In this document: positions 3,461 to 59,166 of the stretch, one piece after another
How the letters are laid out: every line of letters starts with the position of its first letter
How positions within the stretch are numbered: the stretch's first letter is position 1
NCBI GenBank assembly: GCA_011525035.1
Contig: WTIZ01000018.1
Location: 1 to 59,207 of the forward strand
Source: Cryomorphaceae bacterium
Lineage (GTDB): Bacteria > Bacteroidota > Bacteroidia > Flavobacteriales > Schleiferiaceae
DNA: 59,207 nt
Direction of reading: 5' to 3'
Notes under the pieces: generated by a model
Told to the model about the DNA's origin: nothing
Databases searched by the model: none
The model's input: the letters and a program-made list of their open reading frames with translations, nothing else
Made by a program: the position numbers and the translations under genes

Positions 3461-4677
3461 TAGCGCAGCATCGTTACGGCCTTCTCAAGGGCAGCCTTGA
3501 ACAGGTCAATTTCTTCTTTGGTATTGTACATCGCAAAACTAGCTCTTGCCGTTCCGTCAATACAAAAGGCGTCCATGATAGGTTGCGTACAGTGCTGTCC
3601 TGTACGCACCGCTACCCCTTGTTGATCGAGCAACACACCCAAATCATAGGGATGCGTCCCATCGACGACAAAGCTCAGTACACTGGCTTTATTCTTGGCA
3701 TCACCAATTACCCGGAACCCTTCAATCTCTGAACACTCCTGCGTCGCATATTCTAACAGCTCTTTCTCGTGGGCTGCGATTGCTTCAATCCCAACTTCAT
3801 TGATAAACTTCAGCGCAGCCCCAAAGCCTATAATTCCTTCGATATGGGGTGTGCCTGCTTCAAATTTATGCGGGAGTCCAGCATAGGTGCTTTCTTCTAA
3901 AGTCACTGTGGCAATCATTTCACCACCGCCTTGATAAGGGGGAAGGGCTTCTAATCTTTCACGTTTGCCGTAAAGTACGCCAAGGCCAGTAGGACCGTAC
4001 ATTTTATGACTGCTGAGTGTAAAGAAGTCAACGTCCCAAGCACGCACATCTACTTTGGCGTGGGGTCCACTCTGAGCACCGTCAACTAAGGTCCAAGCGC
4101 CTACTTTCTGGGCGCGCTTCAAAATGGCCTCTACGGGATTAATAGTCCCAAGTGCATTGGAGATGTGATTGAAGGCAACCATTGCGGTATGCTCGTCAAT
4201 GATCTCTTCAATACCGTCCAAAACAACCTCACCGTGCTCGTTCATCGGCAAGTGACGAAGCTCTGCACCCGTGCGTTGACAAAGCATTTGCCAAGGCACA
4301 ATATTGCTGTGGTGCTCAACGGCAGTGATCACGATATTTTGTCCCTTCTTCACAAGGGCTCCCATCCCAAAGGCGATGGTGTTGATGCTGTCGGTAATGC
4401 CTCGTGTAAAGATGATTTCAGCTGTTTCCGCTGCATTAATGTGCGCACGTACATCTTCACGAACGGCCTCCATGGCATCGGTAGCGCGCTGACTCAATGT
4501 ATGTACACCGCGGTGTACATTGGCATTGTAGTTCAGGTAATAATCTGAAATAGCATCAATGACGGCGATGGGCTTCTGCGCAGTAGCAGCATTGTCCAGA
4601 TACACCAACGGCCTTCCGTGAATCTCTTGATTCAGGATGGGAAACTGCTGGCGTATGGCTTGGACATCGTAGCTCAT
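3460..4677 (-). CDS. sufS: SufS cysteine desulfurase
   Basis: A PLP-dependent group II cysteine desulfurase that mobilises sulfur from L-cysteine as a persulfide for Fe-S assembly. The PLP lysine is Lys225 in SSHKMYGPTG, and the persulfide-forming Cys363 lies in RTGQHCTQP, the short-loop arrangement of SufS-type rather than IscS-type enzymes. The N-terminal YLDNAATAQKP block and the EHHSNIVPW block also match. The length of 405 residues is typical. It overlaps sufD and sufE by one base each. No sign of damage. Confidence 0.96.
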   Translation of the reverse strand: MSYDVQAIRQQFPILNQEIHGRPLVYLDNAATAQKPIAVIDAISDYYLNYNANVHRGVHTLSQRATDAMEAVREDVRAHINAAETAEIIFTRGITDSINTIAFGMGALVKKGQNIVITAVEHHSNIVPWQMLCQRTGAELRHLPMNEHGEVVLDGIEEIIDEHTAMVAFNHISNALGTINPVEAILKRAQKVGAWTLVDGAQSGPHAKVDVRAWDVDFFTLSSHKMYGPTGLGVLYGKRERLEALPPYQGGGEMIATVTLEESTYAGLPHKFEAGTPHIEGIIGFGAALKFINEVGIEAIAAHEKELLEYATQECSEIEGFRVIGDAKNKASVLSFVVDGTHPYDLGVLLDQQGVAVRTGQHCTQPIMDAFCIDGTARASFAMYNTKEEIDLFKAALEKAVTMLR

Positions 4678-54776: not shown

Positions 54777-55472
54777 TTACAATTCTATAGATTTTGACCA
54801 TGAAGAAAGTTCTTTCCCTTCAGTTCTTAATTTTCCTAGTTTGACGTCCGCTCCTCTTTCCAGGGCATCCTCGGGGAATACGAAAAGGCACCCCAAGAAG
54901 ATTTCGTCCATAGGTATACCAAGTATGGTTCGTGCTTCCTTTTGACGTAGGGTACCACCCGATGACCAATAAGAAGGATGGCCTGCTGCTGTTGCCCCGA
55001 GAAGTATGTTCTGAATGGCTGCACTAGCCGCTGCAATATGCTCCATATTGCGCAAGTTTCCGGTGAATGGTACCGGTTCCATCTCTCGAACTTCTGGTTG
55101 TTCGCCGAAAACATCAGGCAACCAACTCATCACAATCATAGCTTCTGCCGCCCAGAGCATGTTCATGATTTTACCGGCTGGTGGTTGTACCTCATCCAGT
55201 CGGTCCGCGAGTATCCTACAATTATTAGCATTTAGAGTATATGCGCGGAAAGGAAGGGTGCTAGTTAAATCCCCTCGTTTATAGCGTTCAGCACTTTTAT
55301 AATGGTAGGGTGCGCTAGACGCTAATTCCAATAAGCTATTGATTAGGGATTGCTGTGCTTCAGGAGTAAGTGTGGGCGACCAAGGAGCCTCGGCGAGGAC
55401 CTTTGTAGTTTTTCGCTGAGAAATAACTTCTTTAATCGCCTTATCTGCGTTCGAGGGTATCTTTTCCATCAT
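54777..55472 (-). CDS. Nitroreductase family protein
   Basis: A 231-residue flavin-dependent nitroreductase-fold protein. The N-terminal ISQRKTTKVLAEAP block and the AAASAAIQNILLGATAAGHPSYWSSG block (FMN binding and dimer contact) match, with GIPMDEIFLGCLFVFP near the C-terminus. The substrate is unknown; it could reduce quinones or other electron acceptors. Its start overlaps the end of the Nudix regulator by 32 bases. A second Met at residue 2 is adjacent. Confidence 0.87.
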   Translation of the reverse strand: MMEKIPSNADKAIKEVISQRKTTKVLAEAPWSPTLTPEAQQSLINSLLELASSAPYHYKSAERYKRGDLTSTLPFRAYTLNANNCRILADRLDEVQPPAGKIMNMLWAAEAMIVMSWLPDVFGEQPEVREMEPVPFTGNLRNMEHIAAASAAIQNILLGATAAGHPSYWSSGGTLRQKEARTILGIPMDEIFLGCLFVFPEDALERGADVKLGKLRTEGKELSSWSKSIEL

Positions 55473-56172
55473 AGGAATAAAGATACGGATTCCGTCCCCT
55501 TACCGAGGTAGTGATTTCATCGTGGCGTTTGTAGATGTCCAAAGCAAGCATTTTCTTCTGGAAGCGACTGCGGTCTAGATCCCTGCCGGTAATCGTTTGA
55601 TTCAGTTTGTGCAGCTGAGGCATGGTAAAGTATTCCGGCAGCAGGTGATGACCTACTGGAGAGAATTCATTGAGTCCTATAAGATACTCTTGGGCGTTAC
55701 GAATGATTTGTTCGTGGTCGCCGACCATAGCAGGCAGATCATTCACAGGATGCCAAGCGATATCATCATCAAAGCTTCCGACTTTAGGCGTTACGGAGTC
55801 CATTTCGACCAAGGCGATGTAGCCAAGGGTCACATACCTGTCGAGCATGGGGTGATTCTGATCAATCTCAAGGCCTTTTGCTTGAAAAATTCGTTTGAAA
55901 TCCTCCGAAAATGAGCGTTCGCCGTTGCCAAAGACATTGAAAAAGTGCAAGAATTTGCGCTGTAATGTAGTTCGAGCTTCGACAATACGCTCCGCAGCGT
56001 TGCCGACATCTTCATTTTTCTCGATATGTCCTCCAGGAAGAAACCAGCGGTCTCCAAATTGCAATAAAAGACAGTGTAAGGCGTCGTTTTTATAACCAAA
56101 AATGACAATATCCGCGCTGAGGTGCGGGAGGTACTTATCGCTGTATTGGTTTACAATTTGGCTCAGATTCAT
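55441..56172 (-). CDS. Nudix-domain transcriptional regulator, NrtR/AraR-like
   Basis: A 243-residue protein with an N-terminal Nudix domain and a C-terminal winged-helix domain (MPQLHKLNQTITGRDLDRSRFQKKML near 180-206), the architecture of NrtR/AraR regulators. The Nudix box (residues 48-70) keeps G48, E54 and R62, but the catalytic glutamates of REUxEE are I63, A66 and R67, so hydrolysis is unlikely and ligand sensing is expected. I start at ATG 56172; the TTG at 56178 is part of the promoter box. The ligand and targets are not known. Confidence 0.85.
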   Translation of the reverse strand: MNLSQIVNQYSDKYLPHLSADIVIFGYKNDALHCLLLQFGDRWFLPGGHIEKNEDVGNAAERIVEARTTLQRKFLHFFNVFGNGERSFSEDFKRIFQAKGLEIDQNHPMLDRYVTLGYIALVEMDSVTPKVGSFDDDIAWHPVNDLPAMVGDHEQIIRNAQEYLIGLNEFSPVGHHLLPEYFTMPQLHKLNQTITGRDLDRSRFQKKMLALDIYKRHDEITTSVRGRNPYLYSYDGKDTLERR

Positions 56173-56175
56173 ATT

Positions 56176-56183
56176 CAAATATA
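56176..56183 (-). promoter_or_regulatory. Promoter -7 box of Nudix regulator, leaderless start
   Basis: The minus strand reads TATATTTG, followed by three bases and then the ATG at 56172. No TTG at the expected -33 distance; the inverted repeat at 56201-56227 occupies that place. Confidence 0.5.
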
Positions 56184-56200
56184 CGTTTGTGGCGGTTAGT

Positions 56201-56227
56201 CACTAATTAATTCAGCGTTAATTAGTG
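56201..56227. promoter_or_regulatory. Perfect inverted repeat, candidate operator
   Basis: Arms CACTAATTAA and TTAATTAGTG (10 bases each, perfect) with a 7-base spacer. It lies 17 bases upstream of the -7 box of the Nudix regulator, where an activator or autorepressor would bind. Confidence 0.6.
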
Positions 56228-56250: not shown

Positions 56251-56277
56251 TACCCCTTCCTTAAAACGGAAGGGGTA
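56251..56277. terminator. Hairpin between GH3 gene and Nudix regulator
   Basis: A perfect 10-base stem TACCCCTTCC / GGAAGGGGTA around a 7-base loop, downstream of the GH3 stop codon (minus strand). No long T-run, so an imperfect terminator. Confidence 0.6.
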
Positions 56278-56287
56278 AATCAACCAA

Positions 56288-58219
56288 TCAATCATTTGAG
56301 CTTTTTTCTGGATAGCTCAGTCCATAACCGAATTCAAATAGCGGATTTTCGCTGTCGTAAGGTAGATCAGCTTTTTGCTCTTCCACAGCTTGCATAGACG
56401 ATGGGAGCTCAAACGGAAGTTTTCCTTCCGGTGCAGTATTTCCAAACAGAACTTCGCACACACTTTGGTCGCTTGCTCCGAAATTTGCAATGAGCGCTGC
56501 CGCGTGTTCACTGATTTCAGGAACCACCGCTGGGCGATCTAAATACAGATCAACGACAGTTGGCACCTTTTCAAGTAGGGCCAAGATTTCTTCTTTCTCT
56601 TCTCCTTTGAAGTCGAGATCACCATGATGGAAGCTTGCGGCAAAGAAGTTTTTGGTGTCTACAGGTATCCATGGCGTATTTAAGCGAATGATCGCTACAT
56701 CTGCTTCTTCAGGAGTGCTTACTACTGTTGCATATTGAGCCACAGTAGCACTGTCCATATTTTTAGCGTATACCTTCAAGCTATTTTGTGCAAGCGGGAG
56801 TGTGGCTTCATTTTTTAATAGGGTCATAGAGCGTTGTTGAGTAGCTAAACCAAAATCCTTCGCGGCCCCCACAATGTCATTAACAACTGTTTCGTCGATG
56901 AATGGATTCTCGAAAAGTCCCAAAGCAAACTTTTGACGTAGTATCCGGCGAACACTCTGATCTATTCGCGCCTCTGATATTCTTCCTTCTTCTACAAGTT
57001 CAACTAGGAGTTCAGTGCGGTTTTCACCGCCGAATTGGTCACAGCCAACGGTAACAATGCGCTCCACTCGTTCTAACTCGCTAAGGTGTTCCACACCCCA
57101 AGCACGAGCAGGCCAAACAACTGGACCAAAGTTTACGTCAGTAATCAGCCCCCAATCGGTACATACGACCCCGTCATAGGCATACTTTCCTCGAAGTAGT
57201 TCTGTAATAATGGCCTTGTTAAACGCCATAGCGACGTTCTCCTCGGTTTGATCTGTTGGAATTCCGTAGTAGGGCATGATGGCAGAGGTGTTTGCTTCGA
57301 ATGCAGCCTCGAACGGAATGAGGTGGTAATCAAAATTATCTCCAGGATAGATCTGGCCTTCTTGGAAGGCAAAGTGCGGGTCTAGGCCCCTCTTTTGCGG
57401 ACCACCGCCAGGGAAGTGTTTCGTCATACAGGCAACACCATTAGTCATGTCGCTTTGAAGACCTTCGATGTAAGGCTTTACCAATCTTGCTGTTAATTCA
57501 GCATCTTCAGAAAAATTCCCACTAATTCTCGCCCAGCGTGGCTCGGTTGCCAAATCTATCTGTGGGTGCAGCGATTGGCGAATCCCTACGGCCAAATATT
57601 CTTCACGAACCACCTCTGCAAACTCATGGACCAAATTTTCATCTCCAATAGCTGCGAATCCGGGCATTTCGCAGAACTGGGTAAAATGAGTTGCTGCTAC
57701 AGAGAAAATGTTCTCACTGAAGTGATGCCTTGGGTCAGAAGCAATAGTGACTGGGATACCTAATCTGCTTTCTTCGGCCAACAATTGTACGTTGTTGTAC
57801 CAGTTGGCAACTAGCGTTAAATCTGTAGGCAACGACCAAACGTTGAAATGGCGTATTTCTTTACCCGTCATTGTCGCTCCGATGCTTGGCATACGTGCCG
57901 CGGGACCTTCCACTTCTTTCGTGCTCATTGGGTCGCCGGTGCCACTAACTCCGGTCCCTGGGATCCACATCATTCCAACTTTTTCAGCGATGGACATTTG
58001 CCCGATAAGGTCGGTGATACGCTCTTCAGTTTCTACCCGAGAATCTTCGTAAGGATCTAAGGCACCATTACCATTCAGGTCGCGGAATTTCATTCCGTCC
58101 ATTTCAATAATGGCTTTTGACTTTTGTTCAGCCAATGGGGCCAATTCAAGCTGAGTATCAGTGTTACAGCCTATTGTAAGAATTGACAATAAGAGTATCT
58201 GGGAAACGGATTTTATCAT
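56288..58219 (-). CDS. Glycoside hydrolase family 3 lipoprotein
   Basis: A 643-residue secreted beta-glycosidase. Signal MIKSVSQILLLSILTIGC with a lipobox cysteine; then an EF-hand-like DLNGNGALDPYED segment of the GH3 N-terminal domain. GH3 motifs: KHFPGGGPQKRGLDPHF and the nucleophile Asp in VVCTDWGL (near residue 355). The C-terminal domain (about 440-600) carries the ligand-binding sandwich and FGYGLSYP. I prefer ATG 58219 over TTG 58231. It is 56 bases after a perfect hairpin. The sugar specificity is not clear; beta-glucoside or beta-xyloside. Confidence 0.92.
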   Translation of the reverse strand: MIKSVSQILLLSILTIGCNTDTQLELAPLAEQKSKAIIEMDGMKFRDLNGNGALDPYEDSRVETEERITDLIGQMSIAEKVGMMWIPGTGVSGTGDPMSTKEVEGPAARMPSIGATMTGKEIRHFNVWSLPTDLTLVANWYNNVQLLAEESRLGIPVTIASDPRHHFSENIFSVAATHFTQFCEMPGFAAIGDENLVHEFAEVVREEYLAVGIRQSLHPQIDLATEPRWARISGNFSEDAELTARLVKPYIEGLQSDMTNGVACMTKHFPGGGPQKRGLDPHFAFQEGQIYPGDNFDYHLIPFEAAFEANTSAIMPYYGIPTDQTEENVAMAFNKAIITELLRGKYAYDGVVCTDWGLITDVNFGPVVWPARAWGVEHLSELERVERIVTVGCDQFGGENRTELLVELVEEGRISEARIDQSVRRILRQKFALGLFENPFIDETVVNDIVGAAKDFGLATQQRSMTLLKNEATLPLAQNSLKVYAKNMDSATVAQYATVVSTPEEADVAIIRLNTPWIPVDTKNFFAASFHHGDLDFKGEEKEEILALLEKVPTVVDLYLDRPAVVPEISEHAAALIANFGASDQSVCEVLFGNTAPEGKLPFELPSSMQAVEEQKADLPYDSENPLFEFGYGLSYPEKSSND

Positions 58220-58302
58220 GAATCGGTTCAAAATCTTAGGTTAGTATACGGAGCACTAAGCAGGGGTTAGGTGCTTGGTTTGCCTAAGATAAGAATTATT
58301 TA

Positions 58303-58327
58303 TTAATGTGTCTAGTCGACACATTAA
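58303..58327. promoter_or_regulatory. Perfect inverted repeat overlapping menB stop codon
   Basis: TTAATGTGTC and GACACATTAA (10-base perfect arms, 5-base spacer). The menB TAA lies inside the right arm. It could be the menB terminator stem (followed by TAAATAATTCTTA on the minus strand) or an operator for the GH3 gene. Confidence 0.55.
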
Positions 58328-59166
58328 GGAAACTTCGGGAATTTAGAGAAGTCTCGAGGTCGTTTTTCCAAGAAAGCATTGCGGCCTTCAACAGCTTCAT
58401 CTGTACCGTAAGCCAATCGAGTAGCTTCTCCAGCGTACACTTGTTGACCAACCAATCCGTCGTCGATGAGGTTGAATCCAAACTTTAACATCTTGATGGC
58501 CGTAGGGCTTTTAGTCATGATCTCCTGCGCCCAGTCGTAAGCGGTCTGTTCCAGTTCTTCATGCGGCACTACTTTGTTTACCATGCCCATCTCGTAGGCT
58601 TCTTGAGCAGAATACTCAGCACCAAGGAAGAAGATTTCACGCGCTCTTTTCTGACCTACTTGGCGAGCGAGGTAGGCAGAGCCAAACCCTCCGTCGAAAC
58701 TTGCAACATCCGCATCGGTTTGCTTAAAGATGGCGTGCTCTTTAGAAGCAATGGTCATATCACACACTACATGAAGACTGTGGCCACCACCTACTGCCCA
58801 ACCAGGCACTACGGCGATCACGACCTTATTCATGAATCGGATCTGACGCTGTACATCCAGGATATTGAACCTATTGATGCCGTTCTCTCCTTTATATCCG
58901 GTGGTTGAACGAACGCGTTGGTCACCGCCAGAGCAGAATGCCCAGCCGCCGTCTTTCGGTGACGGTCCCTCACCGGTAATGAGCACCACGCCAATTTCTT
59001 GGCTTTCGTGGCACAAGATGAGTGCCTCCCAAAGCTCGTCTACGGTCTTTGGAGTAAATGCGTTGCGCACCTCAGGACGGTTGAACGCAATGCGTGCGAC
59101 GCCGTTAAGCTGCTTAAATGTGATTTCCTCGTATTCCTTGACGGTTTGCCATTCTAGTTGGGCCAT
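58324..59166 (-). CDS. menB: 1,4-dihydroxy-2-naphthoyl-CoA synthase
   Basis: Ring-closure step of menaquinone synthesis: o-succinylbenzoyl-CoA to DHNA-CoA. The 280-residue crotonase-fold protein carries CSGGDQRV (residues about 88-95), PGWAVGGGHSLHVV as oxyanion region and the TDADVASFDGG block with an aspartate at the position used by type II MenB enzymes instead of bicarbonate. The C-terminus GRNAFLEKRPRDFSKFPKFP is diagnostic. Complete. Start ATG at 59166, with a -7 box at the window edge. Confidence 0.95.
   Translation of the reverse strand: MAQLEWQTVKEYEEITFKQLNGVARIAFNRPEVRNAFTPKTVDELWEALILCHESQEIGVVLITGEGPSPKDGGWAFCSGGDQRVRSTTGYKGENGINRFNILDVQRQIRFMNKVVIAVVPGWAVGGGHSLHVVCDMTIASKEHAIFKQTDADVASFDGGFGSAYLARQVGQKRAREIFFLGAEYSAQEAYEMGMVNKVVPHEELEQTAYDWAQEIMTKSPTAIKMLKFGFNLIDDGLVGQQVYAGEATRLAYGTDEAVEGRNAFLEKRPRDFSKFPKFP

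Follow-up and report, generated by a model that had tools for sequence, protein, structure and literature searches.

The Nudix-family transcription factor studied here is probably a repressor of the NrtR/AraR type that works through sites of the form GTGTC-N5-GACAC, as conservation and family assignment suggest. The conspicuous palindrome in its promoter would then be lineage-specific upstream promoter DNA or a chance symmetry. The window is the whole stretch of DNA that was analysed (59,207 nucleotides). The features of the locus are as follows.

54777-55472, minus strand: nitroreductase-like gene (PF00881 below cut-off), overlapping the 3' end of the regulator gene
55441-56172, minus strand: NrtR/AraR-type Nudix transcription factor, 243 amino acids, helix DRSRFQKK (PF21906, PF00293 and PF19368 above cut-off)
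56176-56183, minus strand: exact -7 box TATATTTG, separated from the ATG by 3 bases, the same box in 5/5 orthologs
56189-56203, minus strand: proximal operator candidate GTGACTAACCGCCAC, 8/10 match to GTGTC-N5-GACAC
56201-56227, no strand assigned: palindrome CACTAATTAA-N7-TTAATTAGTG, at -29 to -55 relative to the first base of the regulator start codon (ATG at 56172, minus strand)
56251-56277, minus strand: terminator-like hairpin TACCCCTTCC-N7-GGAAGGGGTA, after the GH3 gene
56288-58219, minus strand: GH3 glycoside hydrolase gene (family match), between the distal operator candidate and the regulator
58284-58291, minus strand: possible -7 box TATCTTAG, which differs from TAnnTTTG at one position, predicted downstream of the distal candidate
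58303-58327, no strand assigned: distal operator candidate TTAATGTGTC-N5-GACACATTAA, with the 15-mer core 58308-58322 an exact GTGTC-N5-GACAC
58324-59166, minus strand: menB, 1,4-dihydroxy-2-naphthoyl-CoA synthase (TIGR01929 and NF006186 above cut-off)

The palindrome spans 27 bases with perfect 10-base arms, exactly at 56201-56227, and the first-pass annotation was accurate in its position, sequence and arms. It was equally right about the exact -7 box just downstream (56183-56176, minus strand) and about the lack of a recognisable -33 element: no TTG or TTTG was read in the -33 area of this promoter, and the palindrome covers that place in the control region of an NrtR/AraR-like factor. The missing element is no anomaly. 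The -33 motif is described as 'much less evident' in F. johnsoniae in an excerpt of PMC6847099, so its absence here is not odd, and lacking it is usual in flavobacteria. Between the -7 box and the ATG are 3 bases (4 in G009 and G007), a spacing that the first-pass annotation leaves unmentioned, and the regulator mRNA is thus predicted to be nearly leaderless; in F. psychrophilum, leaderless transcripts made up 5.5% of the mRNAs examined, according to a part of PMC9723704.

When the window was scanned with three mismatches allowed, the palindrome was found once, and in 0/100 shuffles. The claim that no second copy lies nearby can be widened to the entire genome (1.99 Mb), where the same tolerance gave a single place and no further copies. 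The exact pattern was found 0 times in viral contigs. Counting only perfect inverted repeats with arms of at least 10 and a spacer of at most 10 bases, the window holds seven, whereas 20 dinucleotide shuffles gave 0.45 on average; four of the seven are G+C-rich and terminator-like by inspection. By chance, a single AT-rich repeat of this kind would not be rare across 59 kb, but in this particular 60-base promoter it would be. Chance as the sole origin of the palindrome is possible, and not favoured. Elsewhere in the window, a perfect spacer-less 20-base palindrome (ATGTACACCGCGGTGTACAT) lies at 4501-4520.

The protein has a Nudix-like N-terminal domain (PF00293, 35.6 bits, cut-off 21.1) and the C-terminal winged helix of NrtR/AraR regulators (PF21906, 55.2 bits, cut-off 27; PF19368, 31.1 bits, cut-off 23.8). 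The most similar solved structure is AraR of Bacteroides thetaiotaomicron (BtAraR; 5bs6, E=5.7e-25). The match to 3gz5, the S. oneidensis NrtR, has E=3.1e-10. The Nudix box, read by eye as G-HIEKN-E-DVGNAAE-RIVEARTTL, is impaired compared with GX5EX7REUXEEXGU, the form in which an excerpt of PMC4666351 gives the signature while describing a degenerate box in regulators of this family. As read by eye from the alignment with 5bs6, two of the six DNA-contact residues of BtAraR are kept (K184, R205) and four are changed (K179R, R180S, N181R, K204G; BtAraR numbering), a pattern that does not identify the protein as an AraR ortholog. Consequently, recognition of GTGT by a DRSRF-helix regulator is not guaranteed. 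The changed contacts may explain GTGTC instead of GTGTA, yet they also weaken the analogy with AraR. Our literature searches found no paper on a DRSRF-helix subgroup of Nudix regulators.

We compared the locus across 25 genomes of the same genus; G000 denotes the genome of the window, and labels from G005 to G021 denote others of the set. The regulator is present in five (G000, G018, G020, G009, G007), and no further ortholog was found among 88 genomes of the family at E<=1e-40, several of the genomes being incomplete. A contig search returned 12 loci, of which only two were close, corresponding to G018 and G020. Protein identity to G000 is 98% in G018, 94% in G020, 71% in G009 and 70% in G007. 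All five orthologs share the helix DRSRFQKK without change, and the wing is nearly identical. The palindrome is exact in G000 and G018, has 2/20 arm bases changed in G020 and is absent in G009 and G007. With up to three mismatches, it occurs among the 25 genomes only in G000, G018 and G020, plus one three-mismatch place in G021, which lies away from any regulator match. The two changes in G020 are uncompensated and fall in the outer left arm, and all three genomes have the same 7-base spacer. A kept spacer with a varying arm is the reverse of the pattern expected for a dyad under selection, though only two bases differ.

These comparisons bear directly on the idea that the Nudix protein regulates its own gene by binding the palindrome, with an altered recognition helix reading TTAATTAGTG half-sites. 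Its length of 27 bp would suit a dimer such as BtAraR, which spans 25 of the 27 bp of a duplex (PMC4666351, in part), it is placed at -29 to -55, the recognition helix differs from that of BtAraR, and G018 keeps the site exactly and G020 keeps 18/20 arm bases. Against this, the site is missing from G009 and G007 despite the identical helix, the G020 arm changes are uncompensated beside a constant spacer, and the genome holds no other copy. If the specificity of the regulator is common to all five orthologs, its operator would be expected in all five. Because the helix is constant while the palindrome is intact in two genomes, changed in one and absent in two, we regard it as unlikely to be the operator, and this proposal is distinctly doubtful. 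The first-pass annotation held that absence upstream of orthologs would count against its reading, and this was borne out by half: among the four orthologs besides G000, two lack the palindrome, one has it changed and G018 has it exactly. Of its suggestion of an autoregulatory operator or activator site, the location in a control region stands; the autoregulatory operator probably does not, since the ortholog pattern, the family and the position of the sites point to GTGTC-N5-GACAC.

The activator half of that suggestion fares slightly better, although it too is unlikely. The sites of class II activators lie at a position like that of the palindrome, whose centre is near -42, so it could be a lineage-specific site of another factor, for example an activator of the regulator promoter. 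An unbroken run of 29 columns, from the inner left arm to the proximal site, is identical in G000, G018 and G020, and this agrees with such a site. However, no second copy exists in the genome within three mismatches, the outer left arm varies in G020, and there is no candidate factor.

The preferred reading, a repressor acting at GTGTC sites, rests on different DNA. No 15-mer within the palindrome matches GTGTC-N5-GACAC at more than 3/10 positions or the AraR-type operator GTGT-N7-ACAC at more than 3/8. Its only overlap with the proximal candidate is GTG, the last three bases of one arm. Among the 25 genus genomes, exact GTGTC-N5-GACAC occurs at nine sites (37 for the backwards control), and four of the nine are at the regulator locus, in four of the five genomes that have the regulator. 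In G000 this is 58308-58322, before the GH3 gene; in G018, G020 and G009 (3/4 of the other orthologs) the exact copies lie 70-182 bases upstream of the regulator. The remaining five are divided among G012 (two), G013 (two), both lacking the regulator, and G009 (one more); none of the exact sites listed is at the GH3 copy of G009. G007 has no exact site, but an 8/10 match at -56 from its -7 box. In G018, G020 and G009, the best score within 300 nt upstream is 10, which 0/2000 shuffles reached in each genome. The best score of G000 over this distance is 8, reached by 8% of shuffles, and that of G007 is reached by 7%.

The proximal copy stands at a fixed offset, -20 from the -7 box, in 5/5 orthologs, with scores of 8, 8, 8, 8 and 7 of 10. 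The sum is 39, against 26 at the next offset. For G000 and G009 together, the best sum is the 16 found at this same offset, and 0/20000 shuffles of the last 60 bases reached it. In G009, the 11-mer CTTAACGACAC is common to the weak and strong sites. The distal repeat at 58303-58327 has perfect 10-base arms, overlaps the menB stop codon, lies upstream of the GH3 gene and matches GTGT-N7-ACAC exactly in its core; the whole TTAATGTGTC-N5-GACACATTAA has one exact copy in the genome. Its arms are identical at 20/20 positions and its spacer variable at 5/5 in G000, G018 and G020, which are related and hence not independent comparisons, and the test of arm conservation against the spacer and the next 65 bases gives only p=0.03. 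A search for a wider regulon of AATGTGTC-N5-GACACATT showed no enrichment (one exact and five three-mismatch places, compared with eight for the control).

Conserved arms around a variable loop, at a menB stop codon, are also what RNA hairpins would produce, and the inverted repeats could be terminators or 3' end stabilisers in place of operators. We consider this improbable. The repeats are low in G+C and have no T-run, in contrast to the terminator-like hairpins at 56251 and after menB of G009, and in the repeat at 56201 it is the spacer that is kept and the arm that varies. The end of menB could be read in 16 of 20 menB loci: three (G000, G018, G020) carry the distal palindrome, and G009 has a G+C-rich hairpin. 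In the other 12, all from genomes that lack the regulator, the 130 nt after menB contain no inverted repeat (arms of at least 8) and no GTGT-N7-ACAC; in most of these, menB runs on into the following gene and a hairpin may be unnecessary.

The frames next to menB are informative about the history of the locus. In the 12 genomes without the regulator, the following frame begins nitroreductase-like in six and GDSL-like, as in the window, in five (by eye). In G005, there is no 60-residue frame after menB, but its first bases resemble by eye those of the six nitroreductase-like genes. In the ortholog loci, a 231-residue frame occupies the nitroreductase-like position in 5/5. From the menB-adjacent frames of the regulator-lacking genomes we infer an insertion, in which the regulator and its operator seem to have entered between menB and the nitroreductase-like gene. 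Only G000 has GH3 between operator candidate and regulator, which places the strong site 2.1 kb from its regulator. No GH3 match at E<=1e-40 was found in G018, G020 (77% complete) or G007 (74% complete). G009 has a GH3 that is 93% identical to that of the window, on the same contig as its regulator but elsewhere, and the regulator there is 71% identical, which hints at mobility or exchange. With GH3 in between, followed by the terminator-like hairpin, the strong operator would face GH3 and the weak one would stay with the regulator.

The presence or absence of GH3 raises one further explanation, that the palindrome is the edge of a deletion or insertion, as the homology of G000, G018 and G020 ends no more than a few bases from its left arm. 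The upstream sequences do diverge just left of the arm, and G020 retains a stretch resembling the first GH3 codons. Yet the comparison comprises just three genomes, promoter selection would yield the same pattern, and the G020 junction is ambiguous. We judge it very improbable indeed.

Under the repressor model, and by analogy with AraR, the regulator would act as a dimer that represses through GTGTC-N5-GACAC, which has the GTGT-N7-ACAC geometry. A possible promoter precedes GH3, and the strong site (58303-58327) would overlap its -33 area. The weak copy (56189-56203) would occupy -17 to -31 in the promoter of the regulator itself and could mediate autoregulation. Release may be brought about by a small molecule, perhaps a sugar or a nucleotide. 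The palindrome is then probably not an operator dyad, but AT-rich upstream promoter DNA or a chance symmetry with three bases in common with the weak site. We also propose, tentatively and short of an even chance, that a change of helix from DKRNF to DRSRF in a small AraR/NrtR clade pairs with a change of half-site, GTGTA being replaced by GTGTC. This would give a local operator at two promoters, with a glycosidase gene at the strong one in one genome, separating it from the regulator. What began as a palindrome noticed by eye is now a choice between two DNA sites that can be tested, and an operator is predicted for an uncharacterised subgroup of Nudix regulators. The pairing of helix and half-site, if true, would help in reading specificity across the NrtR/AraR family. 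For the most part, the find is an unremarkable variation on an established control system.

The DKRNF-helix relatives provide a comparison for the operator. Exact GTGT-N7-ACAC lies upstream (up to 350 nt) in 21/22 of their loci, many of the 21 sites being homologous and from one genus. The control TGTG-N7-CACA gave 0/25 in the same set of relatives, in which the other three have different helices and no exact GTGT-N7-ACAC. Order-wide relatives with other helices (FRRNNFQRK, LDRRNFLRK) showed neither full GTGTC-N5-GACAC nor GTGT-N7-ACAC within 290 nt upstream in 26 loci, the best matches of a longer list (L097-L122); not all members of the family therefore have the GTGT site. A part of PMC4666351 calls the DNA motifs of this family highly variable. 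G000 itself has two DKRNF paralogs. One, which is divergent from a pfkA-like and a gapA-like gene (names given by eye), has a GTGT-N7-ACAC site in L055, and the other (L056) has none within the 3.8 kb read. AGTGTA-N5-TACACT stands between the DKRNF paralog and the divergent pfkA-like/gapA-like pair at L055 2319-2333 and L059 2873-2887, and this paralog is a candidate regulator of glycolysis whose operator is conserved.

The regulator resembles these DKRNF-helix Nudix regulators of its order in family and in having GTGT-N7-ACAC upstream, and differs in its DRSRF helix and in the half-site, GTGTC against mostly GTGTA. With NrtR of Shewanella oneidensis (PDB 3gz5/3gz6), it shares the two-domain family and the NrtR_WHD domain; unlike NrtR, it has no NAD genes among the neighbours examined, and it scores below the cut-off of NCBIfam NF050029 (54.7, cut-off 400). 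With AraR of B. thetaiotaomicron (BT0354, PDB 5bs6/5dd4/5ddg/5deq), it has in common the Nudix-like domain, the C-terminal winged helix and the impaired Nudix box. The contacts of that protein define GTGT, and its crystal 27-mer is GTGT-N7-ACAC, as given in an excerpt of PMC4666351; the GTGTC-N5-GACAC site of the window has this geometry, and the palindrome at 56201-56227 does not match it. Among its neighbours with family matches at this locus (menB, GH3, nitroreductase-like, GDSL-like and others), none is an arabinose enzyme, GH3 being assigned by family alone. It differs from BtAraR in the helix, in which KRN has become RSR, and in its GTGTC half-site.
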